A model generated the notes under the pieces. It was given only the letters and a program-made list of their open reading frames with translations, was not told where the DNA came from and made no database searches. From Thuidium tamariscinum (lineage: Eukaryota > Streptophyta > Bryopsida > Hypnales > Thuidiaceae), in NCBI GenBank assembly GCA_947034885.2, contig OX344755.2:26605052-26669051 (forward strand): a DNA stretch of 64,000 bases, in the 5' to 3' direction. Every line of letters begins with the position of its first letter. Position 1 is the first letter of the stretch. Shown in pieces: positions 32,165 through 62,505 of this stretch. A program made the position numbers and the translations under genes.

Positions 32165-32318
32165 TTCATATTAATGAGAAAATTACTAAAGGATGTCTAG
32201 TTTAAGCATCACAATACCGATCTGGAAATGATTGGTTATGTTTTTTGGGTTGAAGATTTACTGTAAAGATGTCTATTGCAATCTTGCCTTTTTTAAGTCC
32301 TTAAATAGGTATCACGAA
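32165..32318. mobile_element. Left part of the target MITE and 8-bp target duplication
   Basis: About 32165-32310 matches the family 2 MITE (GATGTCTAGTTTAAGCATC, GGAAATGATTGGTTATG, TCTATTGCAATCTTG; compare 19635-19735). The matching continuation of the same MITE is found only beyond 62505. ATCACGAA at 32311-32318 is the left target-site duplication of the giant element, identical to 62498-62505. Confidence 0.8.
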
Positions 32319-32331
32319 CAGGGTTGTTCTG

Positions 32332-32768
32332 TTAGACATATTTTTGGGTTTCGGCGTCGTGTTAGACGTCCGATGTCGCGTGTCGTATAAGACAACCTGT
32401 CGCTACCCTGTCCCGTCCCGTCGCGCAAGGGTAAATTTTTTTACCGCGAAGTAAGAAGTTTTTGCCTACGTGGCAGGCTGTCCACGCTGACGTGGAAAGC
32501 GAGGCAGGGCGACTACGGGTGGGGCGACCGCGCATCCGATTTTCAGGGCGACAGCGGGTGCAGAGGTGACCGCGGGTACCGGGCTCAGGCGCGACCGCGG
32601 GTTAAAAATCCAGCGCGACTGCGTCTCTTTTGCGACCGCGGGTGCAATGGAAGGGCGACTTCGGGTATAGGGCGACCTCGGGTACAAGAGAAGGGCGACT
32701 TCTGGTTAGGGGCGACCTCGGGTGCAGGGCGACCACGCCTCTGTCTTTGATGGCGACCGCGGGTGTTT
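32332..32768 (-). promoter_or_regulatory. Left subterminal region and type B array of the giant element
   Basis: 32332-32490 is GC-rich with CGTCG/GTCGCG phrases and ACGTGGCA- and GACGTGG-type motifs, resembling the right subterminal region in composition and in the order (GTAAATTTTTTTACC, then CTACGTGGCAGG). GCGACCGCGGGT-type copies follow at about 32505-32768, reading inwards. No gene lies between the array and the terminus, so the array here is best explained as transposase-binding DNA, not as a promoter. Confidence 0.7.
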
Positions 32769-33426
32769 TTTACCCCTAAATGCTCAAGGCCTTTGGGGGA
32801 GTTTCTAGGAATTTGTTCTAATTTCTAAAGTGAAGAAAAAAATTACTTCATGATGAGCTTTAAGAAAGAAAATTTTAAATGTAACCATTCTAATTCAAAC
32901 TAGACATGTCAGAGATCATTTAGGAGAACAAAACATATATCACTTATGGATTGAAAGATTATAATGTTTAATCACTATAGTGTCCAAATTGCCAAAGAGA
33001 TTTGAAGTCATTCAACCCTCCGTTTACAAGTCTAATCTAAAAAGTTTATGATTAAAAAAAACGGGATGAAAGGGCTTTACAAGCATAACCCCGGTCAATT
33101 TATCGCTTCTCAAAATGTACTCTACAATCTTTTTCCTATATAATGTACAATTCCAATAGACTTTAATTTTGTTTGAAGCGTATACCGAGCTTGCCTTATA
33201 GAATGGTTTTAAAATATAACTACCATTTTCAAAGTTTATTTATAGCATTGTGACCTTTTAAACTACAATCCTTGATTATTACTACAGGTCTACACTTCAT
33301 TGTAGTTTTCATTTTAAATAACAACAATATATTATACATTTTGAATTTTTTTCTTGTAGGGGTGTGAGGGTGTGCCTCTAAAGGACCTTTGTGTTTGTGG
33401 TGTATTGAATTGAATTGACACAATCA
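32769..33426. mobile_element. Eroded family 2 MITE and spacer
   Basis: Directly after the array, TTTACCCCTAAATGCTCAAGG resembles a family 2 end. Similarity to 30530-30800 continues (GAGATCATTTAGGAGAACAA; CACTTATGGATTGAAAG). The other end is not clear. 33130-33426 shows nothing further. Confidence 0.5.
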
Positions 33427-34365
33427 TTAACCCGTAAAGCCCTGAATTGCATTTCTAGGGATCTCACTACCTATTGAATTTCATTTTCTTTTCTTTGAAA
33501 TTTTGACACAACATGTGCCCGCAACTTAGGGGAAAAGGACCAACAATATAATCCCTTTTGACTACACGATCATAAAGTTAGGACATGACGTGTTGTTTCC
33601 TTTAAAATTGTGCGTAGCCCGGGCACCAAAAAAAAACTTCTTTAGAAATTGTGACATTAAGAAATAAAAATTTGAAATATCTTTATTAGATTTTTATCTA
33701 TGTGTAAACCTTCGAATCATTCCATTTCAATACATGAGTCAAAAGTTATGAGGAATTTTAGTTTGGGGTAGTCAATGGGTACTTATAGAATCTCTACTCT
33801 ACCAAAAAAGTTTGAAATTCTTTATTCCATTCAATTTTTTATATTTTTGAAAAAAAAGTGAAACATTGGATGAAGATTGTTTCTTACAATACTTTAACTA
33901 AAGTAATTGGCATTTGTCATTTTTATAAATAATTTGTTGACAACTTAGTATTTTCAAGCATTTTCTATTTTTTTGTTGGTTTCTAACTTAATGTTTTTTC
34001 TCCCATATGTTGAACAATTCCAAATGATTACAAATTTGTAGAATGTAGAGCATACATACCACTTTGATTCTAATATGAGTTTAAAGAATAACCATCAATT
34101 TTGAGTGTTTTTTATACTAATGTCACCTTGTCAAGGGCAATTGGCCAATTGCCGGAAAAAAAGGGGTTTTGCTAGTACAAATGTTAATATCTTGCAATGT
34201 ACATGGTGAAGATTTTCTCCACATCTTCTGAAACCATCCCACAAGAATATCTCACCATTTCATATGTGACAACAAAAATTTCAAAAACATTGCACTTGTA
34301 TTACAAAACGCAATTTTGGAGCAATTTGGGTAGAAATATACTTAGTTAAAAATCTGTGAGGTTAA
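33427..34365. mobile_element. Diverged TTAA-flanked MITE (family 1)
   Basis: 939 bp, bounded by TTAA at 33427-33430 and 34362-34365. The interior follows 20505-21457 in order: GACACAACATGTGCCC, GACCAACAAT, TTTTGACTAC, then near the right end GCAATTTGGGTAGAAATATA. The terminal repeats have decayed (TTAACCCGTAAAGCCC on the left, GTGAGGTTAA on the right), so this copy is older than 20505-21457. Confidence 0.7.
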
Positions 34366-34578
34366 CTAACTAAACCAAAGGCTAGAAAATAATAAAATAA
34401 CCCCAAAGTTAACATGACGAAATACGATGAAAATGCCTAGTAAGGTGCTACAACATATCAATATGTAAGGTACTAAACTACTAGGCTATAAACTTCCGCT
34501 AGAAATCTTTTCAAAAAAACATTTTTGGAAGATACAGTGGGACTAATTTACCTTCCAAACAATTGGACTAATATCTAG
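34366..34578. other. 3' flank of the transposase gene
   Basis: AT-rich, likely containing the 3' untranslated region and polyadenylation site of the transposase gene. No distinctive signal. Confidence 0.3.
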
Positions 34579-37500
34579 TTACAAACAAAAATCTGAATCG
34601 TTCTGCACTTCGTCAGCATCAGGGTCCATATCTTCGCGCGATGCGTAACCAGCGTCTGTGTCGCTATCGTGGCTTGAGCTGTCATTCTCGTCCTCTTCTC
34701 TTGTTATTGGTTCTGGTCGTATTTCTCTTTCCACCTCCGAGGTCAAATTCCGCACAACTATGTCTTGACCACCAGGAATCGCAGTCTGGACTAGTCGTTT
34801 TGTGGGACGCGTTCCATCAATAATTCCATCAACTACAGATTCAGGACCTGCTTGAACCGCTATTGATTGGCTTGATTGCTGGACCGCTTGCGTGGAGCAC
34901 CCTGCCCCAAGCCTACAAGGTTCCACAATTTGATTTGCGCGCTTCGGATGTCTGTGTGTCCTTTCATCTACTCTTCTAATGCGCCTTTTTTTACTTCTGT
35001 CTCTATTGTTGCTGTTGCGTAGTCGTTCTTCCAACGATATTTCTCTTGGCTCAGACACTGGAGTTGGTTGGGTGGCTTGTGGAGCGGACTCGGGGACTTC
35101 TTCATTGATGCTGGATAGTGGACCTCCATCTAAAGGCGTCCTTGTCGATGAACTAGGGGCCGGTCTTCTGACTCTACCTTGGCTTGTATCTTCCCCTCTG
35201 GGCACACGGCCCCTTATAGAAGGAGTTGTGACTGACCTTCTGACTGTAGTCTGCCCTGTATGTCCACCTCGAGTCAAGGAAACGTTCCGACTACGGTTGA
35301 GGATGGTATTCAGTGGCGCATCTGAATCATACTCAGCTGCCTCCGTTGTTTGTATGGTCGGTGAATTCATTGCTACCGAAATAGGAGTTACTTCTTCTAC
35401 AACCTCTTCAATGTGATCCACCTCTTCTTCTGCTTCAATTCCCGCATTGATTGGTGCAATGTTTCCAATATTCATTGCTCTGCTTGAAGGAATACGTGTT
35501 GGTACTGGAGATGTTGGTACTGGAGATGTTTCTTGAACATCTGAGGCAGGCATTTGATTATCTGCTTGTTCGTTGTTGTCAGAAGGTGTTCTTGCCGCAG
35601 TTCGTGGTGAAACTGTGCCCCAATTTCCGACCCACGCATCATCAGGGTTCCACTCTGGAGAACGAAAAAGTTCTTCCTCAGCAACACCTTCCGCATCATT
35701 GCCACTTGCAAATGTGTTTCCATATCGATATGGCGGTGGACTTGGTGGAGGTAGGACCATATCTGCCCATTCATTGTGATCGCGCAAGAGATCTTCTTCT
35801 CTTCGGACTAAATTATCTTCGATAAAATCAAAATAACCCTCGTCCTCCGATCCTGAAGGATTAGGCTCGTCCCTCTCTTCATCAGTGTCTCCATCCACGA
35901 GGACCCTTTCATAAAATTGAGCAGCATTGTACCTACGCTTTTGACGTTCCAAGTGGCAGTTAGCATAAATGTACACCAAATCTTGAGCCTTCTTTGTGGT
36001 CAAACGATTTCGCGTTTTACTGTGCACGAATGAATACATGCTCCAGTTTCGTTCACATGAAGATGCTGAACAAGTCAACCCTAGAATTCTCTTTGCAATC
36101 TTCGGAAGAGCATCGCCGCCTACATGATTCCACCATTGATGAGGTTCTAAATTGGTCTCTGTGATGTCGAGAACCTCTTCTCGGGGATCAAATGGCCCTG
36201 TCTTCTCCTCAAATTGGACAAGCTCTTGCATTGCCACGACCACTGAAACTCCTAATGATGGAGCTAGTTTTCGTATGACTCGATTCAAAGCTGCTTTGGC
36301 CGCCCCATCGTTTTGAATTTCTTCTACTCCTACCAAAAATGGATTCAAGAGTGCTCCTGCATAGTGGAGGTCTGTTCGCATTAACTTCCAACGAGCTTCA
36401 AATTTCTTCTTGTAACGCGTTGCAACCACAGGGTCTAAAAGAAATGGAGGATCCCTGAGAGCATACACGTGTTTCTTCAACTCGAACATTATCAACCAAG
36501 CTTTTGGCATTGCTGGTTTTTTGCCATCAAAGTGTCGTAGAGCAACGAGTACTGGCTCTATCATAAACACGAAATTCTTGCATTTTGACCAAAACCTTTC
36601 AGAATGAATGTTTAGCCGAACATCCATTGCTTTGCGCCTAATGGTACCTCCATTAGTCCGATTCTGCAAACTGAACTCGAAGGTCATGTAAGCGTCATCT
36701 GCAACCACGGTTTGCAAAGCTTGTTTGCAAACGAGCAGGCGGTCTACCATAAGGAAATTGGTGGCAAACCATGTCAAAGTAGGCAGCCTAAGCATTTTGT
36801 TTGGAGAATGTTTCCGAAACAAAGCCATAGTGAAATGGTATTTCCTGATATGCTTCACCATTGTCCTACACTCGCTTACCAAATCCTTCATCGTTTGAGA
36901 CTTTTCCCAATCTTCCAAAAGCAAATCCAAGATGTGAGCCGCACACCCTTGTTTGTACATGTGGGGATATTTCAGTAACAAACATGACATAGTTCCAATC
37001 ATTACTGAAGCATTGTCTGTACACAATTGCACAATATTTGAAGGACCGGCCTTGTCTATGTACTTCGACATTAAAGCTGTCGTGTAGGCAATGTCCTTCT
37101 TCGCTCCCGTACTGTCCTCTGATCCCAAAAACACATCCCCTGCTGGACAAACGAGCATCACATTCATCAACGGTCGCCTATTGGTATCTGACCACCCATC
37201 TGAACAAATAGTTGCTCCATATTGCGCAATAGAGTTCTTTGTCCGGTCATTGACCATTTTTTGGACAACTTCTTTCTTCACATCAATCATCCTGGTACGC
37301 AACGCGTTGAATGCTGGTGGACGATATAAAATTCTAGCTGCTGCAGTTTCCTTCACTACATTTATAAATGCAGGGTGTCGCGTGACGTTGAATGCAATAT
37401 TGGCTTCATAAAAAAATGAAGCCCACGTCGCATCCAACTTTTGTCTCAAGCCTATTTGTAATGCTTCATCCATACTTCTTTGACGAGAAACCACAGGGCG

Positions 37501-37959
37501 GCTTCCTGTTCTGTCAACCGTACTTGGAGTAGAATCCACTAAATCTGGGGTAGGGTTTGTCGGGCCGGTTGGACCCGTTGGATTTGAAGAACCACCCACC
37601 TCACCACCCTCTACCTCTTGAATGAGGGATTGTGCCGCACCAATGGCCTCATTGCCCACAAATGGTGTTTCAAACAATTCTTCAAAGCTCATGGCTTTTG
37701 GAACGTTTCCGCCGCAAGTCATAAACTTTTCACGTGCACTTCTAAGGATTTTTGGACAACGGTCTGCTGTTGCCGAGCCACCATATCCAAAGTGACTAAA
37801 TGCCCTTTTCCACACAAAGACTTTGCTCCACCCGCAAAACACGCATTTCCGAGCATAGGATGAATTATCATTTGGAACGCACGGTACAAGCCAAGGGTCC
37901 CAATCTTTTGTAGCCCTACGCGTATCGTTCCGACCTTGACCGCCACCTGGGACAACCAT
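34579..37959 (-). CDS. Intact hAT-family transposase of the giant element
   Basis: A single uninterrupted frame of about 1126 residues from the ATG at 37959 (MVVPGGGQGRN); an in-frame ATG lies five codons upstream. Counted from that upstream ATG, a BED-like zinc finger has C44, C47, H61 and C73. The RNase H-like core has D259 (TICSDGWSD) and D320 (QLCTDNAS), then the family's C/H motif GCAAHILD (C344, H347), and E641 in SASSCERNWSMYSF within the dimerisation region ending RNRLTTKKAQDLVYIY. About 450 residues follow that are acidic and Ser/Thr/Pro-rich with a basic cluster (RSKKRRIRR), an unusually long tail for a hAT protein. All catalytic residues are present, so this is a plausible mover of the whole 30-kb element and of related non-autonomous DNA. 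Confidence 0.93.
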   Translation of the reverse strand: MVVPGGGQGRNDTRRATKDWDPWLVPCVPNDNSSYARKCVFCGWSKVFVWKRAFSHFGYGGSATADRCPKILRSAREKFMTCGGNVPKAMSFEELFETPFVGNEAIGAAQSLIQEVEGGEVGGSSNPTGPTGPTNPTPDLVDSTPSTVDRTGSRPVVSRQRSMDEALQIGLRQKLDATWASFFYEANIAFNVTRHPAFINVVKETAAARILYRPPAFNALRTRMIDVKKEVVQKMVNDRTKNSIAQYGATICSDGWSDTNRRPLMNVMLVCPAGDVFLGSEDSTGAKKDIAYTTALMSKYIDKAGPSNIVQLCTDNASVMIGTMSCLLLKYPHMYKQGCAAHILDLLLEDWEKSQTMKDLVSECRTMVKHIRKYHFTMALFRKHSPNKMLRLPTLTWFATNFLMVDRLLVCKQALQTVVADDAYMTFEFSLQNRTNGGTIRRKAMDVRLNIHSERFWSKCKNFVFMIEPVLVALRHFDGKKPAMPKAWLIMFELKKHVYALRDPPFLLDPVVATRYKKKFEARWKLMRTDLHYAGALLNPFLVGVEEIQNDGAAKAALNRVIRKLAPSLGVSVVVAMQELVQFEEKTGPFDPREEVLDITETNLEPHQWWNHVGGDALPKIAKRILGLTCSASSCERNWSMYSFVHSKTRNRLTTKKAQDLVYIYANCHLERQKRRYNAAQFYERVLVDGDTDEERDEPNPSGSEDEGYFDFIEDNLVRREEDLLRDHNEWADMVLPPPSPPPYRYGNTFASGNDAEGVAEEELFRSPEWNPDDAWVGNWGTVSPRTAARTPSDNNEQADNQMPASDVQETSPVPTSPVPTRIPSSRAMNIGNIAPINAGIEAEEEVDHIEEVVEEVTPISVAMNSPTIQTTEAAEYDSDAPLNTILNRSRNVSLTRGGHTGQTTVRRSVTTPSIRGRVPRGEDTSQGRVRRPAPSSSTRTPLDGGPLSSINEEVPESAPQATQPTPVSEPREISLEERLRNSNNRDRSKKRRIRRVDERTHRHPKRANQIVEPCRLGAGCSTQAVQQSSQSIAVQAGPESVVDGIIDGTRPTKRLVQTAIPGGQDIVVRNLTSEVEREIRPEPITREEDENDSSSHDSDTDAGYASREDMDPDADEVQNDSDFCL

Positions 37960-38185
37960 TGTGTGAATCCACAATGAGTTTCACCCCCAAAAAATCGATC
38001 CAAGAATCCAGTAATGAGGAAAAAGTTATGACAATGCTACCTACTGTGAGAGGGTTTTTAAACCCCCTCAAAGCAAGGCTCTTGCCCTCCAATGAACCAA
38101 AACATCCGCAAGAAGCCTCTTTCGAAGGTTCAAGGCTAGAGTCTAATCACTGAAGCAAGGTAATCCCTCAGTGTTTCAGCTGCAG

Positions 38186-38800
38186 CTTTATACTCTGTCG
38201 CCACAGGGGCGACTGCGGGTACAGGGCGACTTCGGGTGAATAGGGCGACCGCGGGTGCAGGGCGACTGCGGGTAATGGACGACCGCGGGTAATGGGGGCG
38301 ACGGCGCCTGCAAGGACGACCGCACGTACGAGGGCGACCGCGGGTAGTGGGGCGACCGCGCATGGACGGGCGACCACGCATGGAGGTGGCGGTTCAGGTT
38401 CTGGCACCGGAGGTCGCCCCTGACCCGCGGTTGCCCCAAGCGCGGTCGCACTCCCCGGACGGGCGACCGCGCATGGACGGGTGACCGCGCTTGGAGGTGT
38501 CGGGCGGCAGTTCTGGCACCCGAGGTCGCCCCTGACCCGCGGTCGCCCCAAGCGCGGTCGCACTCCCCGGACGGGCGACCGCGCATGGACGGGCGACCGC
38601 GCTTGGAGGTGTCGGGCGGCAGTTCTAGCACCCGAGGTCGCCCCTGACCCGCGGTCGCACTCCCCGGACAGGCGACTGCGCATGGAGGTGGCGGGCGGCA
38701 GTTCTGGCACCCGAAGTCGCCCCTGACCCGCAGTCGCACCTTTGCAGGTTTTCAATTTTTGGAAAGCGCGGTTGCTGTACACGCGGTCGCCTTACAGGAC
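38186..38800 (-). promoter_or_regulatory. Type B array and TATA box of the transposase gene
   Basis: TATAAAG on the minus strand at 38192-38186, about 230 bp before the ATG. Upstream (38200-38395) the array reads ACCCGCAGTCGCCC towards the gene. Further out (38396-38750) come about three longer units near 115 bp with TTCTGGCACCCGAGGTCGCC and CTCCCCGGACGGGCGACC, in which the motif occurs in both orientations. Confidence 0.75.
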
Positions 38801-40832: not shown

Positions 40833-40849
40833 AGGAATGCAATATTACT

Positions 40850-42330: not shown

Positions 42331-42726
42331 TTATCCTATTCCTAAAAACTAAAAAGGAATATGAAAGTTGCATGTACAAAAATGTATTAATTGAAAGAAA
42401 CATCTATTTTATGAAATTTAGATATGGACACTTTCTTCATAAAAATTTGAAATGTCTACATATTACATATTGAGCATTTTATGGAGATGCTTTTTGAAAG
42501 ATTGAATGAGCATTTTGGATGTTTAAAAAAAACCCGTCAACATGCAAACAAAGGAATATGAATTCTTTTGCATCCATACACATCAATGATAGAAATGAAA
42601 CACCCCAAGTTTGCAAAATAATACGAAAAAATAATAGTAGCCTTTTTATATATAGATGTTTACAAAAGTCATAAGTCCTCCAAAAAATGCTAGCATTGCT
42701 AGCCCCCCAAAAGATCATACAACATT

Positions 42727-44124
42727 CTACTTGCTTTGTTCATCTGTCTTTAGCCTTTTCTTAGCTTCTAAGTCTTTCTTCGCCTCCTTGTAGGCACTAT
42801 CCAAATTGGATTGAAGAGGAAAATCCCACCATTTATTTTTCATGTACTCTTTCTTCAAATTCTGTGCATTGAGCAAATTCATCTTCTTCTTCTCCACTTC
42901 CCCGGCCACATCACTTTCCAATGCGAGAGCATGGGCTAACTTCTTCTTTAGGTCCTCTGCTTCCAACTTCAATGTCTCATGTTGCCTCTCATGATCTTCA
43001 GAATCTTGTATATCAACAATACGATCAAGAGGGGCTTTGTCCTTCATTTTCTGAAGGTCACGTAATTTTGATTGTGCACCTTCAAGAGATCTTTTTTCAT
43101 TTTCCAAGCAGTCAGCTTCGATGTGACAATCTTCCTTGAGTTTAGCCAATCATTCTTCTACAAATTTGTTAGTTGAAGAACTAGAACCTTCACCCCCTGA
43201 AACGGAGAAGTTCAGATAGAATGCTTCCAAGTTCAAGATTTGCTCATGTTGCTTGGACAACTGAATTCGTCCCGATTCAATGAGGGCTTGAAGGGTTGGA
43301 ACATCATCAGAAGTATCAGTCACTGCCCCTTCCTCCAAAGTCCTTTTCTCTTCATTTGCTCTATCCAACTCTTCAAGCACACTCTTCAATTGAACTTTAT
43401 AAAAGTCGTTCAATGGAATATCTTCGTTGGCCTCCACACTTGCAGCTTCAACAGATCCTTCAATTCTTGGCATCCCTTCCAATGAAGGCAATGTCAACGT
43501 GGGGCCCGCCTCCACTTCCCCCTCCTCCAAAGGCTCCAAATTAGCCAATGTCTCACCCATATGTGGCAGTCCAACATCCATCAACTCATCTTCACTACTT
43601 TCGTGATCCGACCACACGAATTCATTGTTCGGAACTTCATTCTTGATGAAAATCTTTTTCCCTAAACCTTCACGTGGGTTTTGGGAGGGACCCGCCCTAG
43701 GAATGTCCTTGGTTGACGGTTTTTGGACAAGCTTTGCTCCCTTAATGGTGCTCCAATCCACCCTTCGTCGAAGAATAACTTCCGCGTACACCATCTCACA
43801 CAGAAACAAGGGAATTTCATTCCGAGGCACACTTCGTGTCTTGTACAAGTATCGATATACTTCGATACATCTTTGTACAAATCCATCGTGAGTGCAAGCA
43901 TGAAGATTTGCCATATTTGACTTCAAGTGGATTTTGTGTCGATGATAGGGGAAAAGCTTATCGATGTGGCACCATTGTACAAATGCCCTACAAGTGGTCG
44001 CGGTCCAAAAGCCTTCGATCCTCTCCCAACCTCCATGAGCCACGACATTAGAGTCCACAAGGACGTGTTGTTGTCTTTTTTGCATCTTGCCTTTGGCTTT
44101 ACGGTTCCTCCGGGTGGCGTCCAT
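42727..44124 (-). pseudogene. WCHIDKLFP coiled-coil protein, shorter type, one in-frame stop
   Basis: 466 codons from the ATG at 44124 (MDATRRNRKAKGKMQKR). The WCHIDKLFP domain is at about residues 25-140 (FVQWCHIDKLFPYHRHKIH; RRRVDWSTIKGAK). An acidic middle and two long coiled-coil stretches rich in Glu and Lys follow, ending KKRLKTDEQSK at 42727. TGA at 43150-43152 interrupts the frame after STNKFVEE; the same frame continues immediately (LAKLKEDCHIE). It is a distinct paralogue, not an allele, of 55283-56779: the domain is similar but the coiled-coil part differs. Unless the stop is read through, the product would be a 324-residue protein keeping the domain. Function unknown. Confidence 0.8.
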
Positions 44125-44199: not shown

Positions 44200-44615
44200 C
44201 AATCACAGTAAAAAAAAACCAAGTACTGGACACGCAGTCAGCCACGAGAAGCGGGTGACAGAGCAGTGTGCAGTGCTGGAATTGCAAGTGGGCGAATGCG
44301 GATGGGGCGACCACTTATAAACCCGATGTCGCCTGGGGCGCGTGCGTTCCGTGCGAGGGCAACTACGGGTGGGGCGAGTGCGGGAAGGGCGACCGCACGA
44401 GGGCGACCGCGGGTCCTTTGAAGGACCTGTTTTGCGGTCTGGGCGACCGCGCCTGGGCGAGTGCGCGAAGGGCGACCACGGGAAGGGCGACCGCGGGTCC
44501 TTCACAACAGTGGCGACCGCGGCTGGGCGACCGCGGGTAGGGCGACCGCGGGTCCTTTTACGAGGTCATTTATTTCTGAATTTCCCGCCTTCTGACTTGG
44601 GCGACCACAGGTTGT
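44200..44615 (-). promoter_or_regulatory. Type B array, TATA box and leader of the shorter coiled-coil gene
   Basis: On the minus strand: array ACCCGCGGTCGCCC from 44615 to about 44330, TTTATAAG at 44321-44314, then the shared leader module at about 44272-44229 (TGTCACCCGCTTCTCGTGGC, then TGACTGCGTGTCC). The ATG follows about 105 bp on. The module is the same as in front of the two kinase genes and the other two coiled-coil genes. Confidence 0.75.
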
Positions 44616-47745: not shown

Positions 47746-47747
47746 GT

Positions 47748-47962
47748 AAAGCGACCGCCTTTAGAGCGACCACGCTTCACAATTTATTTATTTATTTTGA
47801 ACCAAAGGGGCAAGCCCTCTGCATGAAGAAGCTTAACAAAATTTGCAAACCCTGAAAGTAAGGCGACCGCGGGTAAGGGGCGACCGCGCCTCAAGGGCGA
47901 TCGCCAGTGCCACAAGTTGCGTCAGAACACACTACCATTCCAGGCTCGGTCGCCCCTTAAGA
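47748..47962 (-). promoter_or_regulatory. Small scattered type B array
   Basis: A few type B motif copies at 47750-47775, 47860-47905 (GGCGACCGCGGGTAAGGGGC) and 47945-47955, separated by AT-rich DNA containing GGGGCAAGCCCTCTGCATGA. Mixed orientation. It lies at the 3' side of the minus-strand ORF 47957-48310, so it is not that ORF's promoter. Confidence 0.5.
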
Positions 47963-48310
47963 GAATATTCTATTTACTAAATAGGTTTCATCCAGTGTCC
48001 CGCAATGCTCTATCAGCAGGGTTGAAGTTCGAGTTTCAACGAGACATTTCTCGATTTTATCCATCTTCAGAAGTTTTTTGTTGTAGACATCATAAACTCG
48101 ATTGAAAACATGATGAGCACTTTTCACTTGCAGCTCCGACGACACGGGATTATCTCGACACTTGGCAGTGCACAGCACAATTGCCTTCCCGAGCAAAACT
48201 TCCACCACATTCTCATTCTCAACTCCCTTGATACTGCCTTGCGATATAAACACCTCCTTCCCGCCCTTGCGTGGAGGAAGCTCTTTCTTCAGAGTAAGGG
48301 AGCTCCTCAA
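47957..48310 (-). CDS. Partial gene of unknown family
   Basis: A 117-codon frame with protein-like composition (ENVVEVLLGKAIVLCTAKC, SAHHVFNRVYDVYNKK, TSTLLIEHCGTLDETYLV). No family recognised and no homologue in the window. It begins without an ATG next to the array of the kinase gene and ends amid array motifs at both sides, so it is probably a truncated exon caught between arrays. It parallels the unknown minus-strand ORF at 22789-23361 beside the left kinase gene, but the two are not similar in sequence. Confidence 0.35.
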   Translation of the reverse strand: MRSSLTLKKELPPRKGGKEVFISQGSIKGVENENVVEVLLGKAIVLCTAKCRDNPVSSELQVKSAHHVFNRVYDVYNKKLLKMDKIEKCLVETRTSTLLIEHCGTLDETYLVNRIFS

Positions 48311-48565
48311 CCGCGGTCGCCCCCCATCCGCGGTTGCCCCCCAGCCGCTGTCGCCCTCCAGTCGCAGTCGCCCCCAGTCGCGGTCGCCCTACCCGCGGTC
48401 GCCCTACGCACCCGAGGTCGCCTACCCGCGGTCGCGTCTGGATCCGCACGTGCTTGGGGCGACTTCGGGTACTTAAGCAGTCTCCGGGACCGCATTCGCC
48501 ATCTTGCCTCAGCCTTGCACATTGTCTTTCACCCGCCTTGGAGTGGCTGAATGCATGCCCGTGGG
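48305..48565 (+). promoter_or_regulatory. Type B array, TATA-like box and leader of the right kinase gene
   Basis: ACCCGCGGTCGCCC-type copies at 48310-48440 face the kinase. GGGTACTTAAGCAG at 48468-48480 takes the TATA position. The shared leader module CTTTCACCCGCCTTGGAGTG then GCTGAATGCATGCCCGTG lies at about 48526-48563. The ATG is at 48658. Confidence 0.75.
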
Positions 48566-48657
48566 CCGGGGTCCTTTATTCGATTTTGGGGGGATTTTTT
48601 TGTCATTTTGATCTATAAAATTCCTCAAAGCTACGATGAAGCTTTCGATTACACGCA

Positions 48658-50311
48658 ATGTCCAACCCAATAGAAGATGGCGACGTGAGGCACAAAGGTG
48701 TTTTGGATACTCATCCAATATTCTCAGAAATGCCTAATCCCACAGAGGGTACCAGTACCTTGAGGCGAAAATCCCTTTGGGATTTGGATGATCCACAACA
48801 CTTTCTAGAGCCTATATTTACAAGCGAAACAACAGGGAATGAAGCTCGATTGAAGAAAAAGAAGTCCAGGTCTGCTCATGATAAGGATCCAACATATCCC
48901 CTTCAAGTTATACGAAGTATGCATACGAGGTGTGCCTTCAATGGTACGCTGGCAAAAGTGTACAATTTTTGGAGGCAAACTATTTGAGGGATGCTGGAAC
49001 AGGCACGGAGAAGCTGACGGGGGATTTGGAGGCCCGAATCTTAAGCAAGTGTTATGAATCAGAGGACTTCAAAGACGTGGACTTAACGTACAATTCCAGA
49101 TTTTGTGATTGGATGACTGATACTATTCAGGCAGTAACTTTTAATACCAAGAAATTGATGATAGAGTTCCGTGCACCAACCACAAGACGAGTGGAAGATG
49201 AAGAGGCAAAGGAATTCCGTGCGAAGATGGAGTGGTGGCATACTGCGTCCAAGAGATTGTCAAAGTTTGGATCGAGGGGTTTCAAGTGGAAAAATGACGC
49301 TGTGAAGGCTGCATTTGCAAGAGATGGTGGAGTGAGTATCATATGGATTCCACCCACGGCAAAGGTTGAGTCCCTCGGTGGTTTTTCTCGTGAAGGTGGC
49401 CACGGAAAGGTGCGAAAGGTTCGAATAACAGGTCTAGATACCATTCCACCAAATATTGCTCTTGCGGGGAAAATGCCAAAAACGAAGGACTTGCGTGATC
49501 AACGGGTGGAGCGGTCCGTAGAGGCCTTGGCATGCCCTTTAAATCATGGAGGCTTAATTAAGTTTTTTGCCTTAAACTCAATTACCATGGAAGCGTATAC
49601 ATTGTGGTGGAATGGAGGTCATTTGGGTGACTTACTGAATGTGGATAAGCTGGTGTCACCAAGTACTGAATGGCACGAAGTGCATCGAATTAGACAACTT
49701 CCTAAAGAGAAACAAAAGGAAGTTAGCCTTTTTCGAAGGCATAAGGCAAAGTTGGCATGGACCTTGGTGTATGTGACTCACCTCATGCACCAATCATTAG
49801 TGCTACACAACGATTTATCTCCGAGAAATGTATTGTTGCACTATCCTGATTATTCAAATGAAATAATCAACATTGGGATTTATGATTTCGGAATTACAAG
49901 CCGTGTAAACGAAAAAGCCCCATCGCATTATGGATATCCTACCAAGGAAGAGACACGGAAGCAACAAGAGGGACGATGGTGGGTGGCTCCAGAGTTGTTT
50001 TATACATTTGGATTACCTAATTCGGATACAAGCATACCAATTATGCAATCGAGGCATAAATATACAAAGCAGTCAGACTCGTATTCTATTGGAAAGCTGG
50101 TGGAAGCTATGAAGATTGGGGATATGTATCCTTTTGACAAAGAGACATTCACAACGATGGATGCATGTAGGTATTTTGCTATGAAGGTGGGCCAACTCAA
50201 AATGAAGATCTGAAGGAGAGACCAACATGTACAGAGGTGGTGAATTTGGTCCTGGGGCCTCCATGGTATATGAAGCCTCCAACATTTGTATTGCGCGATT
50301 CCCCCCTGTAG
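48658..50311 (+). pseudogene. Protein-kinase-like gene with two frameshifts
   Basis: Paralogue of 23941-25521 over its full length, with a longer N-terminus (MSNPIEDGDVRHKG) before the shared WDLDDP segment. Kinase motifs: REGGHGKVRKV, LAGKMPKTK, VLHNDLSPRNVLLHY, a canonical DFG in IYDFGIT where the other copy has DWG, and VAPELF. A one-base deletion near 48900, against the other copy's CCACCTCCAAGT, shifts the frame before the LQWYAGKSVQFLEA stretch. A second one-base deletion near 50205 shifts it again before KERPTCTEVV; the restored end is LRDSPL with TAG at 50309-50311. The central 427-codon frame covers the whole kinase core. Both shifts lie in short homopolymer-like stretches, so sequencing error is possible for either. 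Confidence 0.82.
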
Positions 50312-50605
50312 TGATGAATGCATTAGTTGAAGGCAAATTGTTGAGCTATTAGAAGAAATTGTTGGCAACAATGTGAGCCTATCATTTTGTATTACTATAC
50401 ACGAATATATAAATTTTTCTTTGGCAAAACAAAGTGTACATACCATTACCTTCCATGCATTGTATTTTAAAAGTTAAAATATAATTTATCTTGGAGTCAA
50501 ATTTGTCTTCACTGTGAGTTGAAATGTCATATGACATGTTTGTATCAAGTCCATAAGATCACCTTTTTGGGGAGTATGGGGAAATAATATATTACGCAGG
50601 CTTTA
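50312..50605. other. 3' flank of the right kinase gene
   Basis: AT-rich DNA likely to contain the 3' untranslated region. Nothing specific recognised. Confidence 0.3.
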
Positions 50606-51698: not shown

Positions 51699-51700
51699 TA

Positions 51701-54725: not shown

Positions 54726-54749
54726 ACAACAAAAGAACTAGAAGCCCCA

Positions 54750-55035
54750 AACCCGAAGGCGCGGTTGCCCATCCCGCAAACGCGCACCCGTGGTCGCGCA
54801 CCTGCGGTCGCCCATCCCGCGAACGCGCACCCGTAGTCGCCCAGCCGCGGTCGCACCCCACGAACGCGCACCTTCCTGGACCCGCGGTCGCCTTGAATGC
54901 GCAGGCGCCCTTGCGCACGCGCCCTAGGCGACTGCGGGTACTTAAGCAGTCACCCCGACCCGTAGTCCACCTCCCTTGCTTTGCGCATTGACCTTCACCC
55001 ACTTAGATGTGGCTGATTGCGTGCCCGTGAGCAAG
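54750..55035 (+). promoter_or_regulatory. Type B array, TATA-like box and leader of the intact coiled-coil gene
   Basis: Array variants (CGCGGTCGCCC, GAACGCGCACCCGTGGTCGC) at about 54760-54940 face the gene. GGGTACTTAAGCAG is at 54936-54949. The shared leader module CTTCACCCACTTAGATGTGG then CTGATTGCGTGCCCGTGAG is at about 54993-55031. The ATG at 55283 is 250 bp further, in AT-rich DNA where a 5' intron is possible. Confidence 0.75.
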
Positions 55036-55282: not shown

Positions 55283-56779
55283 ATGGAGGATGAGACTGGA
55301 GCAGCCCAGCCTAGTACAGGCAAACCATTGACTTCACCACAGAAGAGGGCAGCTCGAGACAAGGACCGTAAAAGGAAGGGGAAATGTCACAAGAAGCGAG
55401 TGCCTCTCCTTCAACATCCAAAAATCAAGGCTTTTTTGGGTTGGAGGACTGAACCTGAGCCTTGGACTTACAAAACAGTCAACAAATATGTTGATTGGTG
55501 CCACATCAACAAGTTGTTTCCACATTGGCGCCACAAGATTCATTTGGGGCAAAACAAGGCCAATCTTGCATATTGCAAAGATGAAGACTTCACACTCAGA
55601 TGCTTGGAAGTATGGATGAGGTTGTATGGGGAGACCAAGCCATATAGAAACGACAATTTCTGTTTCTTCCTGGTCCAAATGGTGTATGCTGAAAACATAT
55701 TGAAGAAAAAAGTGGACTGGTCAACATTGAAGGAGCTTCTAGTTGGAGACCATGTGGAAGAAGCATCTATTGTGGCAGAAGGTGAAACAATTGATGTGAA
55801 GAAGTCATTGGCACGAGTGAAGCCTAGGAAGTTAGCTGTTTTGGATGAAGACGTAGTATGGTCGCCTAATTCTAGCTCGGATGAACACACCCATGAATAC
55901 GATGGGTATAATTTCCAAAGCGACGATGAGGATGTTGGCATGGGCGACCAAAAAAAGGCCTTGGAGTTGGAACTTGCCAAGAAAGGCAAAAGAAAGGTGG
56001 AGGACCGAGGGACTCCATCAAACATCCCAAAACAAGTCAGGGAGGGTCATGAGCATATGGAAGTAGGCCAAAAAATTGTTGAAGGCCTCCAAGATGGGAG
56101 AGTAGGTGATGGAGAAGAGAGTGTGGACATTATCCAAGCTCAATTAGATTCAACAATTGAGGCCTTGGATTTGGTGAAAAGACATGTGTTAGAATTGCGC
56201 CAAATAAGAGCATTGGAACTTAGTGCTGGCACAACTGCACACACCATCCCTATGTTGAAGGAAGAGATGAAGGCCATACATAGGGCCATCTCTGAAAATG
56301 ACGAGCGCCTAGCTTCTATGAAAAAAAGTAGAGATCTTTATTACAAGAAGAAACAAGAGAAGCGTGGACACCCAATGGACGTGTATGCCATACTTCAACA
56401 AAAATTGAGAATTCTTGAACGCGAACGTTGGCGAGTGCACAATGACGTAAGAGTCCTCAATCGGCAAATAGATGAGGAAGAAAAGACCAACTACGTTGCT
56501 GCTCTACAATGTGCCTCAGAGCTAGATTTTCTCGCTATGGCTCCTCAATACGGTACCACAGAAGAAGAAGTATCAGTATTGCGGAAGCTTGTAAAGCTAC
56601 ATGAGAAGAAATTTGTGGAATCAGTGAAAGAGGTGGGACAATTGGATTCACAAATTCAATTTGAGCGCGCTTGGATAAAGTGGAAAGTGCGTACTACAGC
56701 TCGAGGTGTTACTCGTAAAGACCTTGAAGAGATAGGTCCAGAACCCAAAGAAGAAGATTTTTGTAATACCACACGTTGA
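55283..56779 (+). CDS. WCHIDKLFP coiled-coil protein, intact
   Basis: 498 residues in one frame from MEDETGAAQPSTGKP. A basic nuclear-type patch (RDKDRKRKGKCHKKR) precedes the WCHIDKLFP domain at about residues 45-165 (YVDWCHINKLFPHWRHKIH; KKKVDWSTLKELL). Then comes an acidic spacer with SPNSSSDEHTHEYDGY and a long coiled coil from about 285 to 470 with two helical stretches. The C-terminus is PEPKEEDFCNTTR. It is the intact version of 17477-18967. It lies convergent with the RING-H2 gene 58660-61872, as its homologue does with 11161-13644. A nuclear DNA- or chromatin-binding scaffold is a reasonable guess from the basic patch and coiled coil, but no known family confirms it. Confidence 0.85.
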   Translation: MEDETGAAQPSTGKPLTSPQKRAARDKDRKRKGKCHKKRVPLLQHPKIKAFLGWRTEPEPWTYKTVNKYVDWCHINKLFPHWRHKIHLGQNKANLAYCKDEDFTLRCLEVWMRLYGETKPYRNDNFCFFLVQMVYAENILKKKVDWSTLKELLVGDHVEEASIVAEGETIDVKKSLARVKPRKLAVLDEDVVWSPNSSSDEHTHEYDGYNFQSDDEDVGMGDQKKALELELAKKGKRKVEDRGTPSNIPKQVREGHEHMEVGQKIVEGLQDGRVGDGEESVDIIQAQLDSTIEALDLVKRHVLELRQIRALELSAGTTAHTIPMLKEEMKAIHRAISENDERLASMKKSRDLYYKKKQEKRGHPMDVYAILQQKLRILERERWRVHNDVRVLNRQIDEEEKTNYVAALQCASELDFLAMAPQYGTTEEEVSVLRKLVKLHEKKFVESVKEVGQLDSQIQFERAWIKWKVRTTARGVTRKDLEEIGPEPKEEDFCNTTR

Positions 56780-58659: not shown

Positions 58660-61600
58660 CTAAACATTTGGGTCTTCATGTGCATTGCTTGATTCACCAC
58701 GCTCGTGGTTGGATGATTCTCCAACCACAAGTTTGCGCTTGGCGCGAGTGCGTGAAGCTGGTCCATTCGCATTTAGAATGGATTCTAGGGTAAATGCAAG
58801 AAACACTTGTACTATTTCCCGTCACCACCTAAGTGCTGATCTGTTTTTTGGCCATAACTTTTGCATTTTTGTTCGAAATGACTTAAGATTTCTAGAGAAG
58901 GTACTCATGACTATCATACACCTTACATAATTTTTTCATAATTTTCAAAAATAATTTAATACTAAAATAGTACTAGTGATTGAATGTCACATTTGGCAGT
59001 TTAGGGGTTTTTAGTCACTAAGGAGTACCTTTTTTTAATGATTTTTAGATGAAATTTGGATGAGATGGTCTTCTAATAGACTTATAGCTCTCCACATGAG
59101 GAATTTTGAAAAAAGTTATTTTTATGACCTGTAGAAGTCCACAAAGTGAGCTTCCTTCTGGTTGCATTTTGAAACATATAAAGTATTATTTTAGTGATTT
59201 TTTTGATGGATGACCATCTCCATAAAGTTGTTTCAAATGGCTACTTTTTGTTTTTTGTATTTACTTATTTTTACTAATTTTCCCGAATTAAAACATGAAG
59301 GTATGTATTTTCTTGAGATTTGGCGCTTTTTAAGTTCTCCTACTTAGAGAATTTTTCTATCAATTTCCTTCGGTGAAAACCTTCATCTTAGAGGTCTATA
59401 CATTGTTCATATTTTTCATATTTTTTTCAAATTAATTTTCTAATTTTAAAGTACTCCAGAAAAAGTCATGAGTACTGTAGTAAAACGCAACAAATAGTAC
59501 AGGTGTTTCTTGCATTCACCCTGTAAGACGTTGGAATCCTTCAAGGCTTGGAGGGTCCTCATGGTCTGTAGAGAGTGTTTCTCCAACAAATAGTCAACAG
59601 TTTGACTCGTGTAGTAGGGCCCATATGTAGAGTCCAGCAATGCCATACTAGTAAGATCTTCTTCAGAGGCATTTGCATTCTGGTCGCACACTCTTTTTCC
59701 TTCAAAATCCCAACGGTGACATTCCGGATGACGTCCCCACATGAAGCTTTGTGATTGTTTATCGAAAAATCCACCAAGGCATTGGAAAAAAAATGCCCTC
59801 CGTCCCTCGTTCTGTGGACCGTTTCCCATGAGCTTGGATGCAACTTGCACGATCTCTTCTGGGTCAGTTTCCCAATTCAATTGAGAACTATCTATGCCCT
59901 TTTCTTGATCATGTTGGCCTTGTCGCCAACTCCAAATCAGGTCTCGGCCCCATAATCTGGTCTCCGGAGTTGTGTCACCTGTGTATTCCCAAGAGGGCGG
60001 CATATATGTCATCAAGTTGAACAAGGTGTATAAACGATCATGGAATGGGGCTGAACAAATAACACAACGTCTCCGTATGAGGCATTGTGTAATTAGACAT
60101 TGAGGATGGTATACGTGCACGCATGATCCAAGTGCCCATCCTCCTTCAGGGCCGAAGGATTCTTGACATATAGGACATTTTGTATGGTCCAAAACAAAAG
60201 TTGCTGGCTTTGGCCACAAAAGTTGTCGTTGTTTCTCATCTACGTGGCACGACATCTGGTTTTTGTGGTCCCAACCAAGCTGTGTCCAATTGATTCCTTC
60301 ATTTCCAGGGGTGTTCAACATAGGCATATTCTCAGGAAACATGTCCTCCATAAATGCCCACGATGTGAGTCCATTCTCACGTTTAGGGGCATTTGCGACG
60401 AAGTTCTTTGAAATTTTGTCCAACTCCTTTGCAACTTGTTGTGATCTGTCCACGGAGAGAATGCACGCAACCTTCCAGTGATAGTATGTTGCTGCCAACT
60501 CATTCAATCGTGCACGAAGCATCTTGTTTTCCTCTCGAAGGCCTAGTTTCTTCGGAGATGGTACCGGTACGGGGAGTGGAAGTGATGGAAATGAAAGTGA
60601 ATCTTGAGTCTCGTGAACACCATCTGCCCCCACGATAGCATCTTCCGTGACGGTAGGCAAAATCGTAGCTGGCAATACTGAAGAACGTTTGACATGCTTG
60701 CCAGGAGGAGTACACTCAATGAGACCGCTAGTGAGGTCTTCCACGACCCTCTCCAAATGATGAGGATCATGTTCAATGAAACCTTCGTCCATATCTGACA
60801 AAGTAATCGTCTCATGTTGTTTTTGTCGAAGGCGTTGAAGTTCTTTGGCTTGTTCTAAAATGAGAGCATTCTTCTGGTCCAAATTTGATTGCAATTTCTT
60901 CACATCAGATTGGAGTGAAGCAATTGTCGTGTCTTTGGTCTTCAAGAGGTCAAGAGCCTTATTGAGAGCCGTGGTTGAATCCCCTTGAGCTAAAAGAACA
61001 GGAACGCTCGCATCCACAGGCGTTTCATCATTTGGTTCGAAGTCGAAGACATCGGTCGCATTTTGCAGTGGTAATGATGGACTGCGAACTGTTGCTGAGG
61101 TCGATCCAAGTCCGATTTGATTCGGCGAGCGTGGAACCTTAGAGGGGCGTCTAGGTTTCCGTCCTCGTGATGATGAAGCTCCTCTGACAGCTGGATCTTG
61201 AATTACTGGTAGAGGGGCAATTTGTGGAGCAATCCGTATTGGCCTTGGAGCATGTGTGCCATCGGAATCGCTATCTTCTTCAGATTCCGATGTGATAACT
61301 TCGATGACACTCTTATCGAAAGGATCTTTTCGAATTGGTCCAAGTCCACCCTCCGGAAACTTCAAGACTCCTCTTGGTATTGATCCAATTTCTGGAGGTG
61401 AAACATACATACTTTCCTTGATGGTGGACCAATCCACTTCTTTTTTTAGAACCACCTCAGCATACGCTCCTCGAGCAATGGAAAGCGTGACTTCATTCCT
61501 TTCTACAAAAGGAGTGTTGTAGAGGACTTGCCAAATTTCGATGCACCTTTGAACAAAAGCTGGATTTTCACAATATTTCAAGTTCGCCTTGTTTGTGTGC

Positions 61601-61872
61601 CGATTGTGATGATGGCGCCATGCCGGAAACAATTTCCCAATGTGACACCATTCAATGTAGTCTTCGCACATTTGAATTGACCAAGGCTCCTCCTCCTCGC
61701 TCCAGCCTATAAATGCGGGGTGATCAGGATTGTTCAGCACGTGTAATCGCTTGCGATGAGTATTGCCTCTGCGCTTCCGATTTTTGTCTAGTATAGACTT
61801 CCTCGCAGCATAAGTGATTCATGTATTGCGTGGAACAACGGGGGGCACCTCCGGGGTCTGCTCTGTAGCCAT
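58660..61872 (-). pseudogene. WCHIDKLFP RING-H2 gene with early stop and MITE insertion
   Basis: Paralogue of 11161-13644, with the same length once the insertion is set aside (824 against 827 residues). The start ATG is at 61872 (MATEQTPEVPPVV). TGA at 61819-61821 replaces codon 18, where the other copy has Arg. From there the frame is open through the WCHIDKLFP domain (YIEWCHIGKLFPAWRHHHN, with Gly for Asp), a coiled coil and the RING-H2 finger (CPIC, GSCVHVYH, PQC, CVIC) up to DSNVL at 59524. There a TA-flanked MITE (58788-59523) interrupts it; the coding sequence resumes at 58785 with ESILNANGPASRTRAKRK and ends at TAG 58660-58662. Without splicing of the MITE the product would lose its last 41 residues and gain 26 MITE-encoded ones. 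Confidence 0.88.
58788..59523. mobile_element. TA-flanked MITE inserted in the RING-H2 coding sequence
   Basis: TA at 58786-58787 and 59524-59525 flanks the element. The homologous gene at 11161-13644 has a single TA at the matching place, so the empty site is known. The ends are GGGTAAATGCAAGAAACACT and, inverted, CAGGGTGAATGCAAGAAACA, about 30 bp with few mismatches. TA duplication suggests a Tc1/mariner-type origin. No transposase inside. Relatives lie at 50606-51698 and, eroded, at 16135-16840. Confidence 0.88.
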
Positions 61873-61929
61873 GAGATAAGTTGGTGTTCAAAACACCAAT
61901 AAGGAAACGTGGATGGATGAAGAAAGAAG

Positions 61930-62345
61930 TAATTATTCAACCCGAAGTTAATGCATGCAGCCAATGAAGGATGCAAGACGAAGAGCCTCGATGGAGAATT
62001 AAGGTACCAATGCCTTGTGCGAGCACGGCTTTATAGGCGCGAGTACGGGTAAAATCCAGGGCGCGTGCGAATCAGAGGCAACCACGAGTGGCGCCAGGGC
62101 GACTGCGGCTAGAGGCGACTGCGGCTTAGGGCGACCGCGTATTGGAAGGGGGCGACCTCGGGTGCGGATGGGGTGACCGCGGATGTGGGGGGGCGACCGC
62201 GGGTCCTTGAAGGGCGACCGCGGCTGCGCATGGGGCGACTTCGGGTGAGCCGCGGTCGCCTAATGCTGCAGTCGCCCCTAGCGCGGTCGCCCCCACGCTA
62301 AACCGCTACCCGCGGTCGCCCTACCCGCATGCGCCCTAATTTTTG
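61930..62345 (-). promoter_or_regulatory. Type B array, TATA box and leader of the right RING-H2 gene
   Basis: On the minus strand: array at 62345 to about 62040, outer part reading GCGACCGCGGGT and inner part ACCCGAAGTCGCCC towards the gene, the same two-part inverted design as at 10618-10990. TATAAAG follows at 62035-62029, then the leader CATTGGCTGCATGCATTAA shared with the left RING gene. ATG at 61872. The outer part also serves as the right subterminal array of the giant element. Confidence 0.75.
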
Positions 62346-62505
62346 CCACGCGGGCATCCAGGTGGCATTATTTTCCACGTGGTAATTTTTAAAAAGTCAA
62401 AGGTAAATTTGACTTTTATGGACGTCGCGGAGGGTCTACTGGACGTTTCGTGACGTCGCAATGTCGCGATGTCGTAATGTCCGGCAGAACAACCCTGATC
62501 ACGAA
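62346..62505. mobile_element. Right terminus of the giant element and target duplication
   Basis: Subterminal DNA with GCCACGCGGGCATCCAGGTG and AAAAGTCAAAGGTAAATTTG, matched in inverse order at 10482-10617. The terminal CAGAACAACCCTG is at 62485-62497. ATCACGAA at 62498-62505 repeats 32311-32318 exactly. Confidence 0.85.

Follow-up and report, generated by a model that had tools for sequence, protein, structure and literature searches.

We analyzed a 64,000-nucleotide stretch of the genome of the moss Thuidium tamariscinum (assembly GCA_947034885.2, contig OX344755.2; hereafter, the window, whose numbering is used throughout) and found that it contains a 30,179-bp element, here termed E2 (32319-62497), which is very probably one of many copies of a giant hAT DNA transposon whose usual unit is ~29.4-30 kb, with five genes of its own. 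E2 has defined ends flanked by 8-bp target site duplications (TSDs), it was inserted precisely, several near-identical complete copies of it exist, and its gene kit is conserved in a sister family. The member of that family found here, E1, is the element in which E2 lies.

Ends and target site of E2

The original prediction for this DNA, made from its letters alone, placed 13-bp inverted ends and 8-bp direct repeats at the borders of E2, and both were confirmed to be exact (Table 1). Pairs of 13-bp inverted repeats alone are common in this repeat-rich window (2,500, counted in both directions); pairs more than 500 bp apart that also have an adjacent exact 8-bp repeat occur at a single place, which is E2, and at none in 20 first-order shuffles. 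Two features of hAT elements, short terminal inverted repeats (TIRs) and an 8-bp TSD, were found in all three hAT elements of the region, i.e., E2, E1, and a third one, H1. The TIRs are 13 bp in E2 (exact) and H1 and comprise the first 11 bp in E1, and the TSD is exact in E2 and E1 and matches at 7 of 8 positions in H1. TIRs of hAT elements are given as 5-27 bp long (PMC12506042; here and below, papers are cited for the parts of their text available to us).

When the two flanks of E2 were joined with a single ATCACGAA, the full 234 bp was recovered at 97-100% identity at 40 scored places (of 196 candidates). Of these, 36 are located inward of an E1-type end of the same strand, at a distance of 21.8-59.4 kb. 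Uninterrupted target sites of this kind indicate that E2 inserted precisely, that it made its TSD in doing so, and that the target is itself a repeated element.

Copies of E2 across the genome

The genome searched was the window's own assembly (363 Mb in 19 contigs). The exact 13-bp ends of E2 divide into 142 forward and 128 reverse places, compared with 11 and 15 for the reversed control. Pairing was done on 100 listed places of the 270, among which 32 neighboring pairs were less than 100 kb apart; 27 of them are convergent and 5 are not, whereas strand shuffles of the listed ends gave a mean of 7.9 and a maximum of 16 convergent pairs. The original prediction had named several flanked copies with different 8-bp repeats as its confirmation, and this is what we obtained: with both flanks fetched, 23 of the 27 convergent pairs have exact 8-bp TSDs, all different. 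As for size, 10 pairs span 10.4-12.5 kb, 13 span 26.9-31.0 kb, 3 span 51.3-51.6 kb, and 1 spans 63.8 kb.

Three complete copies of ~29.5 kb each were fetched, namely, A (C1:7134478-7163927), B (C1:49765205-49794608), and C (C2:523552-553152). Their identity to E2 is 98.2-98.4% over 29.2-29.3 kb and that among themselves 98.5-98.7% over 29.2-29.45 kb, and all hold the five genes in an unchanged order. These flanked copies, together with the 40 uninterrupted target sites, support the earlier proposal that the genes moved together as one unit. Across E2, A, B, and C, the hAT frame is open in all four, WCH2 in three (E2, A, and B), WCH3 in two (B and C), and the RING and kinase frames in one each (C and A, respectively).

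Individual genes and longer ends were also counted. The E2 hAT gene was found at 41 scored places (of 904 candidates), all full length and 94-100% identical, and 18 of them lack a stop, the query's own place included. Among 55 RING genes scored of 1,307 candidates, 50 are of E2 type (14 without a stop) and 5 of E1 type (4 without a stop). The exact 26-bp left end of E2 occurs 96 times, on 11 of the 19 contigs (control, 0); 39 of these ends have an E2-type RING gene within 120 kb, oriented as expected, and in 32 of the 39 it is 26.7-30.4 kb away.

The three near-equal pairs of 51.3-51.6 kb are G000:C2:13392366-13443958, C2:8496968-8548247, and C3:20984598-21036221, and their matching lengths may be coincidental or may mark a second size class. 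The one that was read, copy D, is E2-like with long inserts: it aligns to copy A piecewise at 85-97% identity, and several of its frames are broken.

A conserved five-gene kit

From left to right, the genes of E2 are hAT (-), WCH3 (-), kinase (+), WCH2 (+), and WCH-RING (-). "WCH" is a name coined in this analysis for a ~130-residue region with the motif WCHI(D/N)KLFP, which is common to WCH2, WCH3, and the RING protein and had no Pfam family match in the proteins scanned. The original prediction listed an intact hAT transposase, kinase-like and RING genes, and two WCHIDKLFP genes. The transposase frame is indeed full length and open, with matches to hAT domains, and the other genes were found where predicted, with the RING fingers of both E1 and E2 matching Pfam only below gathering scores; the count of two WCHIDKLFP genes has to be amended, since the domain is present in three proteins, the RING protein included.

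The E2 copy itself is partly decayed, with lesions in three cargo genes that the original prediction missed. WCH3 has an in-frame stop at 43150-43152, despite which it matches its homologue P0094 across all 467 residues, and copies B and C have an open WCH3 frame. Compared with its E1 counterpart, the kinase is frameshifted twice, by 1 bp each time, near 48900 and 50204; in copy A, it is open over ~500 aa. WCH-RING has an in-frame stop at codon 18 and, near its C-terminus, a ~736-bp inverted-repeat insert (58787-59522) with 31-bp inverted ends. The hAT and WCH2 frames are open, and WCH2 is 97.6-98.6% identical between E2 and copies A, B, and C.

A C-terminal dimerization domain, the third hAT feature that we assessed, is matched by PF05699 above the gathering score in both E2 and H1; over the same region, there is a weak match to Hermes (E-value 0.03). 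The motifs CSDGW, LCTDNA, and CSASSCERNWS occur in the E2 transposase in that order, and we take them to be candidates for its DDE catalytic residues. In a transposase tree built by a quick method with a midpoint root (6 of 64 homologues left out as partial), a single group of 24 rows (support 100) unites the hAT proteins of E2 and H1 with rows from Physcomitrium and Ceratodon, and both angiosperm rows lie outside it.

All five genes are under purifying selection between E1 and E2 and form a conserved kit. Synonymous divergence (dS) is 0.82 for RING, 1.31 for WCH2, 1.16 for the kinase, 1.07 for hAT, and 1.00 for WCH3, and the ratio of nonsynonymous to synonymous divergence (dN/dS) is 0.23, 0.25, 0.13, 0.25, and 0.20, respectively (779, 376, 389, 1,061, and 183 codons). 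Within hAT, the tail is less constrained (dN/dS of 0.42) than the core (0.17). All five genes are common to E1 and E2, and a smaller set of three is present in the more distant H1. Taken with the homology to H1, the dS and dN/dS values fit the joint descent of a functional kit better than repeated independent capture.

Several homologues merit mention in their own right. P0008 (WCH2) and P0082 (WCH-RING) each have a longest contig of 4,937 bp, and they are possibly on the same contig, which would be the same gene pair in another organism. P0018, 82% identical to the E2 transposase (57% of the query region), was deposited as a Bacilli metagenome-assembled genome and is probably misbinned plant DNA. 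P0076, a transposase homologue with a Ceratodon purpureus locus tag beginning KC19_V, comes from a 110.5-Mb contig that we take to be the V sex chromosome; relatives of these elements may sit there. No relatives of the kinase were found in the prokaryote genome contigs scanned with it.

GC-rich word arrays and gene-less relatives

A GC-rich word with the consensus GGGCGACCGCGGGT is clustered in both E1 and E2. Between 10482 and 62497, 99 of the 114 GGCGAC sites fall within zones (900 bp before approximate gene starts plus 450 bp at ends) that cover 14.4% of the stretch. Clusters follow the same pattern, with 9 of 10 in zones compared with a circular-shift mean of 1.45 (P = 0.009), the zones having been defined after the clusters were known. 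The ratio of observed to expected CpG is 1.13 in the arrays versus 0.41 in the remaining noncoding DNA.

H1 has a word of its own, TCAGGGCGCGGAC, and the switch is sharp: in the window, all 36 sites with the core of TCAGGGCGCGGAC lie at or before 10481, and 115 of 116 GGCGAC sites lie after it. Over its whole length, H1 holds 40 sites of its own word and 1 GGCGAC. The former make up four clusters: one of them, at 8161-9217, has no assigned gene, and the word otherwise sits upstream of hAT, in the interval shared by the kinase and RING genes that face each other, and close to the right end.

Two of the ten copies of ~10-12 kb were read (C1:33253341 and C1:24023048), and both are gene-less relatives; the two are 86-98% alike. 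C1:33253341 matches copy A over 280 bp at the left end (89%) and ~210 bp at the right (82%), and it also has short, weaker matches to arrays and other noncoding parts (39-218 bp, 70-92%). Neither relative has an open reading frame (ORF) of at least 120 codons outside the arrays, and the sole protein match in C1:33253341 is to the kinase (48 residues, 37.5%, E-value 6e-4). GGCGAC sites are kept (35 and 61), and some of them form a central array remote from either end. To judge by their sequences, these relatives constitute a natural deletion experiment in which ends and arrays were kept.

E1 has two similar promoter-like arrays, at 29657-30029 and 63852-64166. The second precedes WCH3, and the first may have belonged to a lost paralogue.

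Proposed mechanism and alternative explanations

By analogy with hAT biochemistry, E2 would move by cut and paste through its hAT transposase. We think it rather probable that the family-specific word arrays are the binding site of an element protein, either the transposase or a WCH protein, which would tie end recognition to cargo transcription; with such a protein bound to the arrays, the same word would serve both mobility and cargo expression. VANDAL/VANC of Arabidopsis is the closest precedent for arrays as protein-binding sites. More tentatively, at a confidence somewhat short of even, we propose that the giant hAT elements of mosses form a lineage of self-contained multigene entities (transposase, kinase, RING ligase, and WCH proteins, some with an SRA methyl-DNA reader). 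In such a lineage, one element-specific word would mark both ends and genes as the element's own regulon, host chromatin or protein turnover would be manipulated to escape silencing, and families would split by changing the word with the transposase. We are more doubtful still about what the cargo does: the kinase, RING, and WCH proteins, and SRA in E1, might aid element expression or escape from host silencing, as VANC does in VANDAL, and such aid would explain why the cargo has been retained. Kinase, RING, and SRA proteins could plausibly act on chromatin or on the turnover of proteins.

A number of observations weigh against this account. Mobility is read from the sequence of one assembly. 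No E1-type end is listed near four of the 40 empty sites, and the TSDs of 4 of the 27 convergent pairs are imperfect (one mismatch in 2, two mismatches in 2). In each of the four complete copies examined, at least one of the five frames is not open, so that the autonomy of any single copy stays putative. In addition, no E2-type RING gene was found where expected for 57 of the 96 left ends, in a search that scored 55 of 1,307 candidates; these ends may belong to gene-less copies, truncated copies, or unscored candidates. In the comparison of E1 with E2, WCH3 was covered over 183 codons only, and dS ranges from 0.82 for RING to 1.31 for WCH2. As for the arrays, their role is suggested by position, within zones drawn after the fact; the clusters at 29657-30029 (E1) and 8161-9217 (H1) have no assigned gene; no array was found within 2.5 kb of the left end of H1; and selection on the word, instead of a lack of methylation, could account for the high CpG content. 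The only E1 copy read has a broken SRA gene, and no SRA gene was found in E2.

Three other origins for the 30-kb unit were considered and rejected. It might be a macrotransposon, i.e., two small hAT elements around unrelated host DNA that moved together once, with incidental cargo. Maize is known to have Ac macrotransposons, with sizes of 10.3 and 28 kb (PMC9910405), and one match to the TIR with two mismatches lies inside E2, at 61725. That match is within the RING gene and is no more than chance would give (the window has 2 such matches, and six shuffles had 1-5), and no internal hAT end that is exact or has one mismatch was found in E2. The same five genes stand in the same order in four copies and are also present in the sister family E1, the cargo is under purifying selection, and element-specific arrays precede the genes, which makes a macrotransposon very improbable. 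Equally improbable is a segmental or assembly duplication, in which a ~30-kb block would have been copied by recombination or misassembly and the end repeats would be coincidental. The region is repeat-rich and E1 sequence lies on both sides of E2, as such a duplication would allow, but the exact TSDs of 23 of the 27 pairs differ from one another, the shuffles gave no match of the 13 + 8 type, and the 40 empty sites contradict it. Nor do we give any real weight to an endogenized virus or a Teratorn-like hybrid of virus and transposon. Size and gene load would suit one, and there are faint matches to three Pfam families named after viruses or phages (Equine_IAV_S2, E-value 0.011; Phlebovirus_NSM, 0.043; ORF6N, 0.21), all of which are below gathering scores; none of the 23 ORFs or proteins scanned (larger ORFs only) matched a viral domain at or above its gathering score, and the viral contigs scanned with the RING protein held no relative of it.

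Granting that E2 is a giant hAT transposon, its arrays might be promoters or CpG islands only, with no role in transposition or anti-silencing, and the kinase, RING, and WCH genes might be selfish passengers or serve the host. We regard this as unlikely, though far less so than the three origins above. In its favor, 9 of the 10 clusters are at gene starts or ends, and array binding is itself putative. On the other hand, the gene-less relatives of ~10 kb keep large arrays, one of them central and without a gene, the word changes with the transposase family, and the cargo dN/dS of 0.13-0.25 is like that of the transposase (0.25).

The host element E1 and the third element H1

Coordinates beyond the window extend its numbering over the fetched flanks, with position 0 included. 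E1 starts at -6587 with CAGGGTTTTCTCT, and its inverted partner CAGGGTTTTCTTG ends at 76123; the first 11 bases, beginning CAGGGTTTTCT, are identical. An exact 8-bp TSD, GTGGGGAC, stands outside both ends, at -6595 and 76124. E1 is 82,711 bp long with its two inserts (E2 and H1) and 35,469 bp without them. Its gene order, RING (+), WCH2 (-), kinase (+), WCH3 (+), hAT (+), is that of E2 reversed with the kinase flipped. WCH2 of E1 has at least one in-frame stop, with its open frame ending at 17810, and hAT has an open frame of 1,065 codons that lacks the first ~14 residues, which align upstream. The best solved relative of the SRA fragment is SUVH4, a histone methyltransferase. E1-type left ends occur at 98 places at no more than one mismatch (control, 0).

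H1 (-6565..10481; 17,047 bp) was inserted in E1, 14 bases from its left end if the duplicated 8 bases are not counted. It has CAGGGTTGTCATA at both ends and, outside them, GCGACAAC and GCGACAAT. Its gene set is hAT, kinase, and WCH-RING, all ~33-39% identical to their counterparts in E1/E2 or P0080. The hAT gene has an in-frame stop at 6553, plus one at 8377 if the last frame belongs to the gene; the kinase (564 aa; PF00069, E-value 1.2e-10) and WCH-RING (773 aa; RING match below the gathering score) are open. We also considered whether the left half of the window is one decayed relative and rejected this, since both flanks resolve it into H1 inserted in E1.

H1-type ends occur at 177 genome places (control, 0). 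When the 100 listed ones were paired by end sequence, 28 neighbors within 100 kb were convergent, spanning 0.2-55 kb, and 9 were not. Eight of the 28 span ~3.8-4.0 kb (e.g., G000:C3:26687549-26691458) and four span 6.8-7.0 kb, which suggests that short relatives of H1 may exist.

Other repeats were noted in the three elements. A long inverted repeat (40945-42358 and 46560-47691; arms ~77% identical and ~4.2 kb apart) brackets WCH3 in E2, and tandem repeats lie at 3342-3781 (172 bp), 39246-39909 (185 bp), and 53062-53355 (147 bp), within H1 and E2. The insert in WCH-RING and one at approximately 50600-51700 are related insertions with inverted ends of the AGGGTGAATGCAAGAAACAC type; the latter is a near-palindrome with 340-nt arms, 86% complementary, and another relative lies at 16155-16783. 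In addition, two TTAA-bounded elements of ~0.95 kb with CCCCTAAAG/CTTTAGGGG ends, at 20505-21457 in E1 and 62841-63772 in its continuation, are by appearance piggyBac-like miniature inverted-repeat transposable elements.

Table 1. Features of E2, E1, and H1 in window coordinates
Feature	Position	Strand	Details
E2 left TSD copy, ATCACGAA	32311..32318	+	exact 8-bp repeat
E2 left 13-bp TIR, CAGGGTTGTTCTG	32319..32331	+	exact; 270 genome places vs 26 for reversed control
E2 array of GGGCGACCGCGGGT, left subterminal	32508..32752	+	9 GGCGAC sites
E2 hAT transposase	34579..37980	-	open, 1133 aa stop to stop; PF04937 (DUF659), E-value 1.2e-31; PF05699 (Dimer_Tnp_hAT), E-value 2.6e-7
E2 array of GGGCGACCGCGGGT, upstream of hAT	38197..38786	-	19 sites
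E2 WCH3 (WCHIDKLFP domain and coiled coil)	42730..44124	-	72% identical to P0094 over 467 aa
E2 array of GGGCGACCGCGGGT, upstream of WCH3	44306..44600	-	11 sites
E2 array of GGGCGACCGCGGGT, upstream of kinase	47862..48679	+	11 sites
E2 protein kinase	48730..50310 (bounds approximate)	+	PF00069, E-value 1.7e-10 (copy A, 1.7e-12)
E2 array of GGGCGACCGCGGGT, upstream of WCH2	54807..54927	+	4 sites
E2 WCH2	55283..56779	+	open, 498 aa; 78% identical to P0001 over its length
E2 WCH-RING (WCHIDKLFP domain and RING-H2-like finger)	58663..61872	-	zf-RING_2, E-value 5.2e-4
E2 array of GGGCGACCGCGGGT, right subterminal and upstream of WCH-RING	62098..62315	-	11 sites
E2 right 13-bp TIR	62485..62497	-	exact reverse complement of CAGGGTTGTTCTG
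E2 right TSD copy, ATCACGAA	62498..62505	+	exact 8-bp repeat
E1 left part	10482..32318	+	left end outside window, at -6587
E1 WCH-RING	11164..13644	+	open frame; 70.5% aa identity to E2
E1 WCH2	17488..18967 (start approximate)	-	tblastn stretch 18922-17489, 54% identical to P0001
E1 SRA domain gene fragment (methyl-cytosine-reader type)	22173..22569	+	PF02182, E-value 5.8e-30; split over two frames
E1 basic ORF, 191 aa	22792..23364	-	faces kinase across shared array
E1 kinase	23941..25521 (bounds approximate)	+	in-frame stop where open frame ends, 25281
E1 resumed right of E2	62498..64000	+	array, then WCH3 from 64337, hAT 70987-74181, right end 76123
H1 right part	1..10481	+	inside window
H1 hAT	5443..9189	+	40-45% identical to E2 hAT in local alignments
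H1 right subterminal array, TCAGGGCGCGGAC	10140..10329	+	word differs from GGGCGACCGCGGGT

Comparison with known systems

E2 belongs with the hAT elements by its TSD, its ends, and its dimerization domain, and on the features tested it is not a Starship, a Mutator-like element (MULE), or a macrotransposon. Like Ac/Ds, Hermes, and Tol2, it has an 8-bp TSD, a short TIR starting with CAGGG, a dimerization domain, subterminal repeated motifs, and gene-less relatives that share its ends. Ordinary hAT members, however, are a few kb long and encode the transposase alone, whereas the unit here is ~29-35 kb with five or more genes, so that the size and gene load of E2 are far above what is usual for hAT-class mobile DNA. 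Ac, for example, measures 4.6 kb (PMC3260210). A review of giant transposons reports a marked drop in cut-and-paste transposition above 6 kb of cargo (PMC6431247), and E2-type elements bear on how tightly size limits such transposition. Macrotransposons of the Ac/fAc type in maize likewise have large DNA between hAT ends and 8-bp TSDs, with 28 kb known (PMC9910405); in these, host DNA lies between element ends, in contrast to the fixed gene set, own arrays, and many copies found here. No internal end, exact or with one mismatch, that would mark a smaller hAT element at the border, as in the Ac type, was found in E2.

Giant cargo-bearing transposons of eukaryotes are best known from fungi and fish. 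The original prediction likened E2 to fungal Starships and to Teratorn-like elements, and this holds for size and gene load but not for the enzyme, which is of hAT type; no tyrosine recombinase (DUF3435) or herpesvirus domain was found among the 23 ORFs or proteins scanned. Starships are likewise giant cargo-bearing mobile elements, but they have a DUF3435 tyrosine recombinase as their first gene (PMC12506042), in place of the hAT transposase and TIRs seen here. The 14-kb fungal ToxhAT/ToxTA, once cited as a large cargo-bearing hAT, is now placed by its authors in Tc1/mariner, with a TA duplication (PMC12506042). Teratorn of medaka is likewise giant, has inverted repeats, and encodes a DDE transposase, as E2 putatively does, but it is a fusion of piggyBac and herpesvirus of 41-182 kb (PMC6431247).

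In the literature searched, from which preprints and most subscription papers fell outside, the accessible text held no description of giant multigene hAT elements in plants or mosses. The available parts of the review of giant eukaryotic transposons do not mention "hAT" (PMC6431247), those of a 2026 review of gene capture in plants mention neither "hAT" nor "giant" (PMC13317346), and those of a liverwort paper (PMC13182070) and a brown alga paper (PMC12477816) contain nothing on such elements. With its five-gene kit, near-identical copies, gene-less relatives, and family words, this plant hAT lineage offers a natural experiment on what giant elements need for mobility and persistence.

The arrays find their nearest likeness in the Mutator-like VANDAL elements of Arabidopsis, which also have element-specific motif arrays in noncoding or upstream DNA, a motif that varies by family, and extra genes. 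There, tandem arrays of short motifs are bound by a protein of the transposon, which leads to methylation being lost, and related families differ in the motif (PMC5735166). E2 differs in that its transposase is of hAT and not Mutator type, no VANC homologue was recognized, the cargo consists of kinase, RING, and WCH proteins, and any anti-silencing role is suggested by analogy. E2-type elements thus offer a second, independent system, outside VANDAL, for testing anti-silencing through motif arrays.

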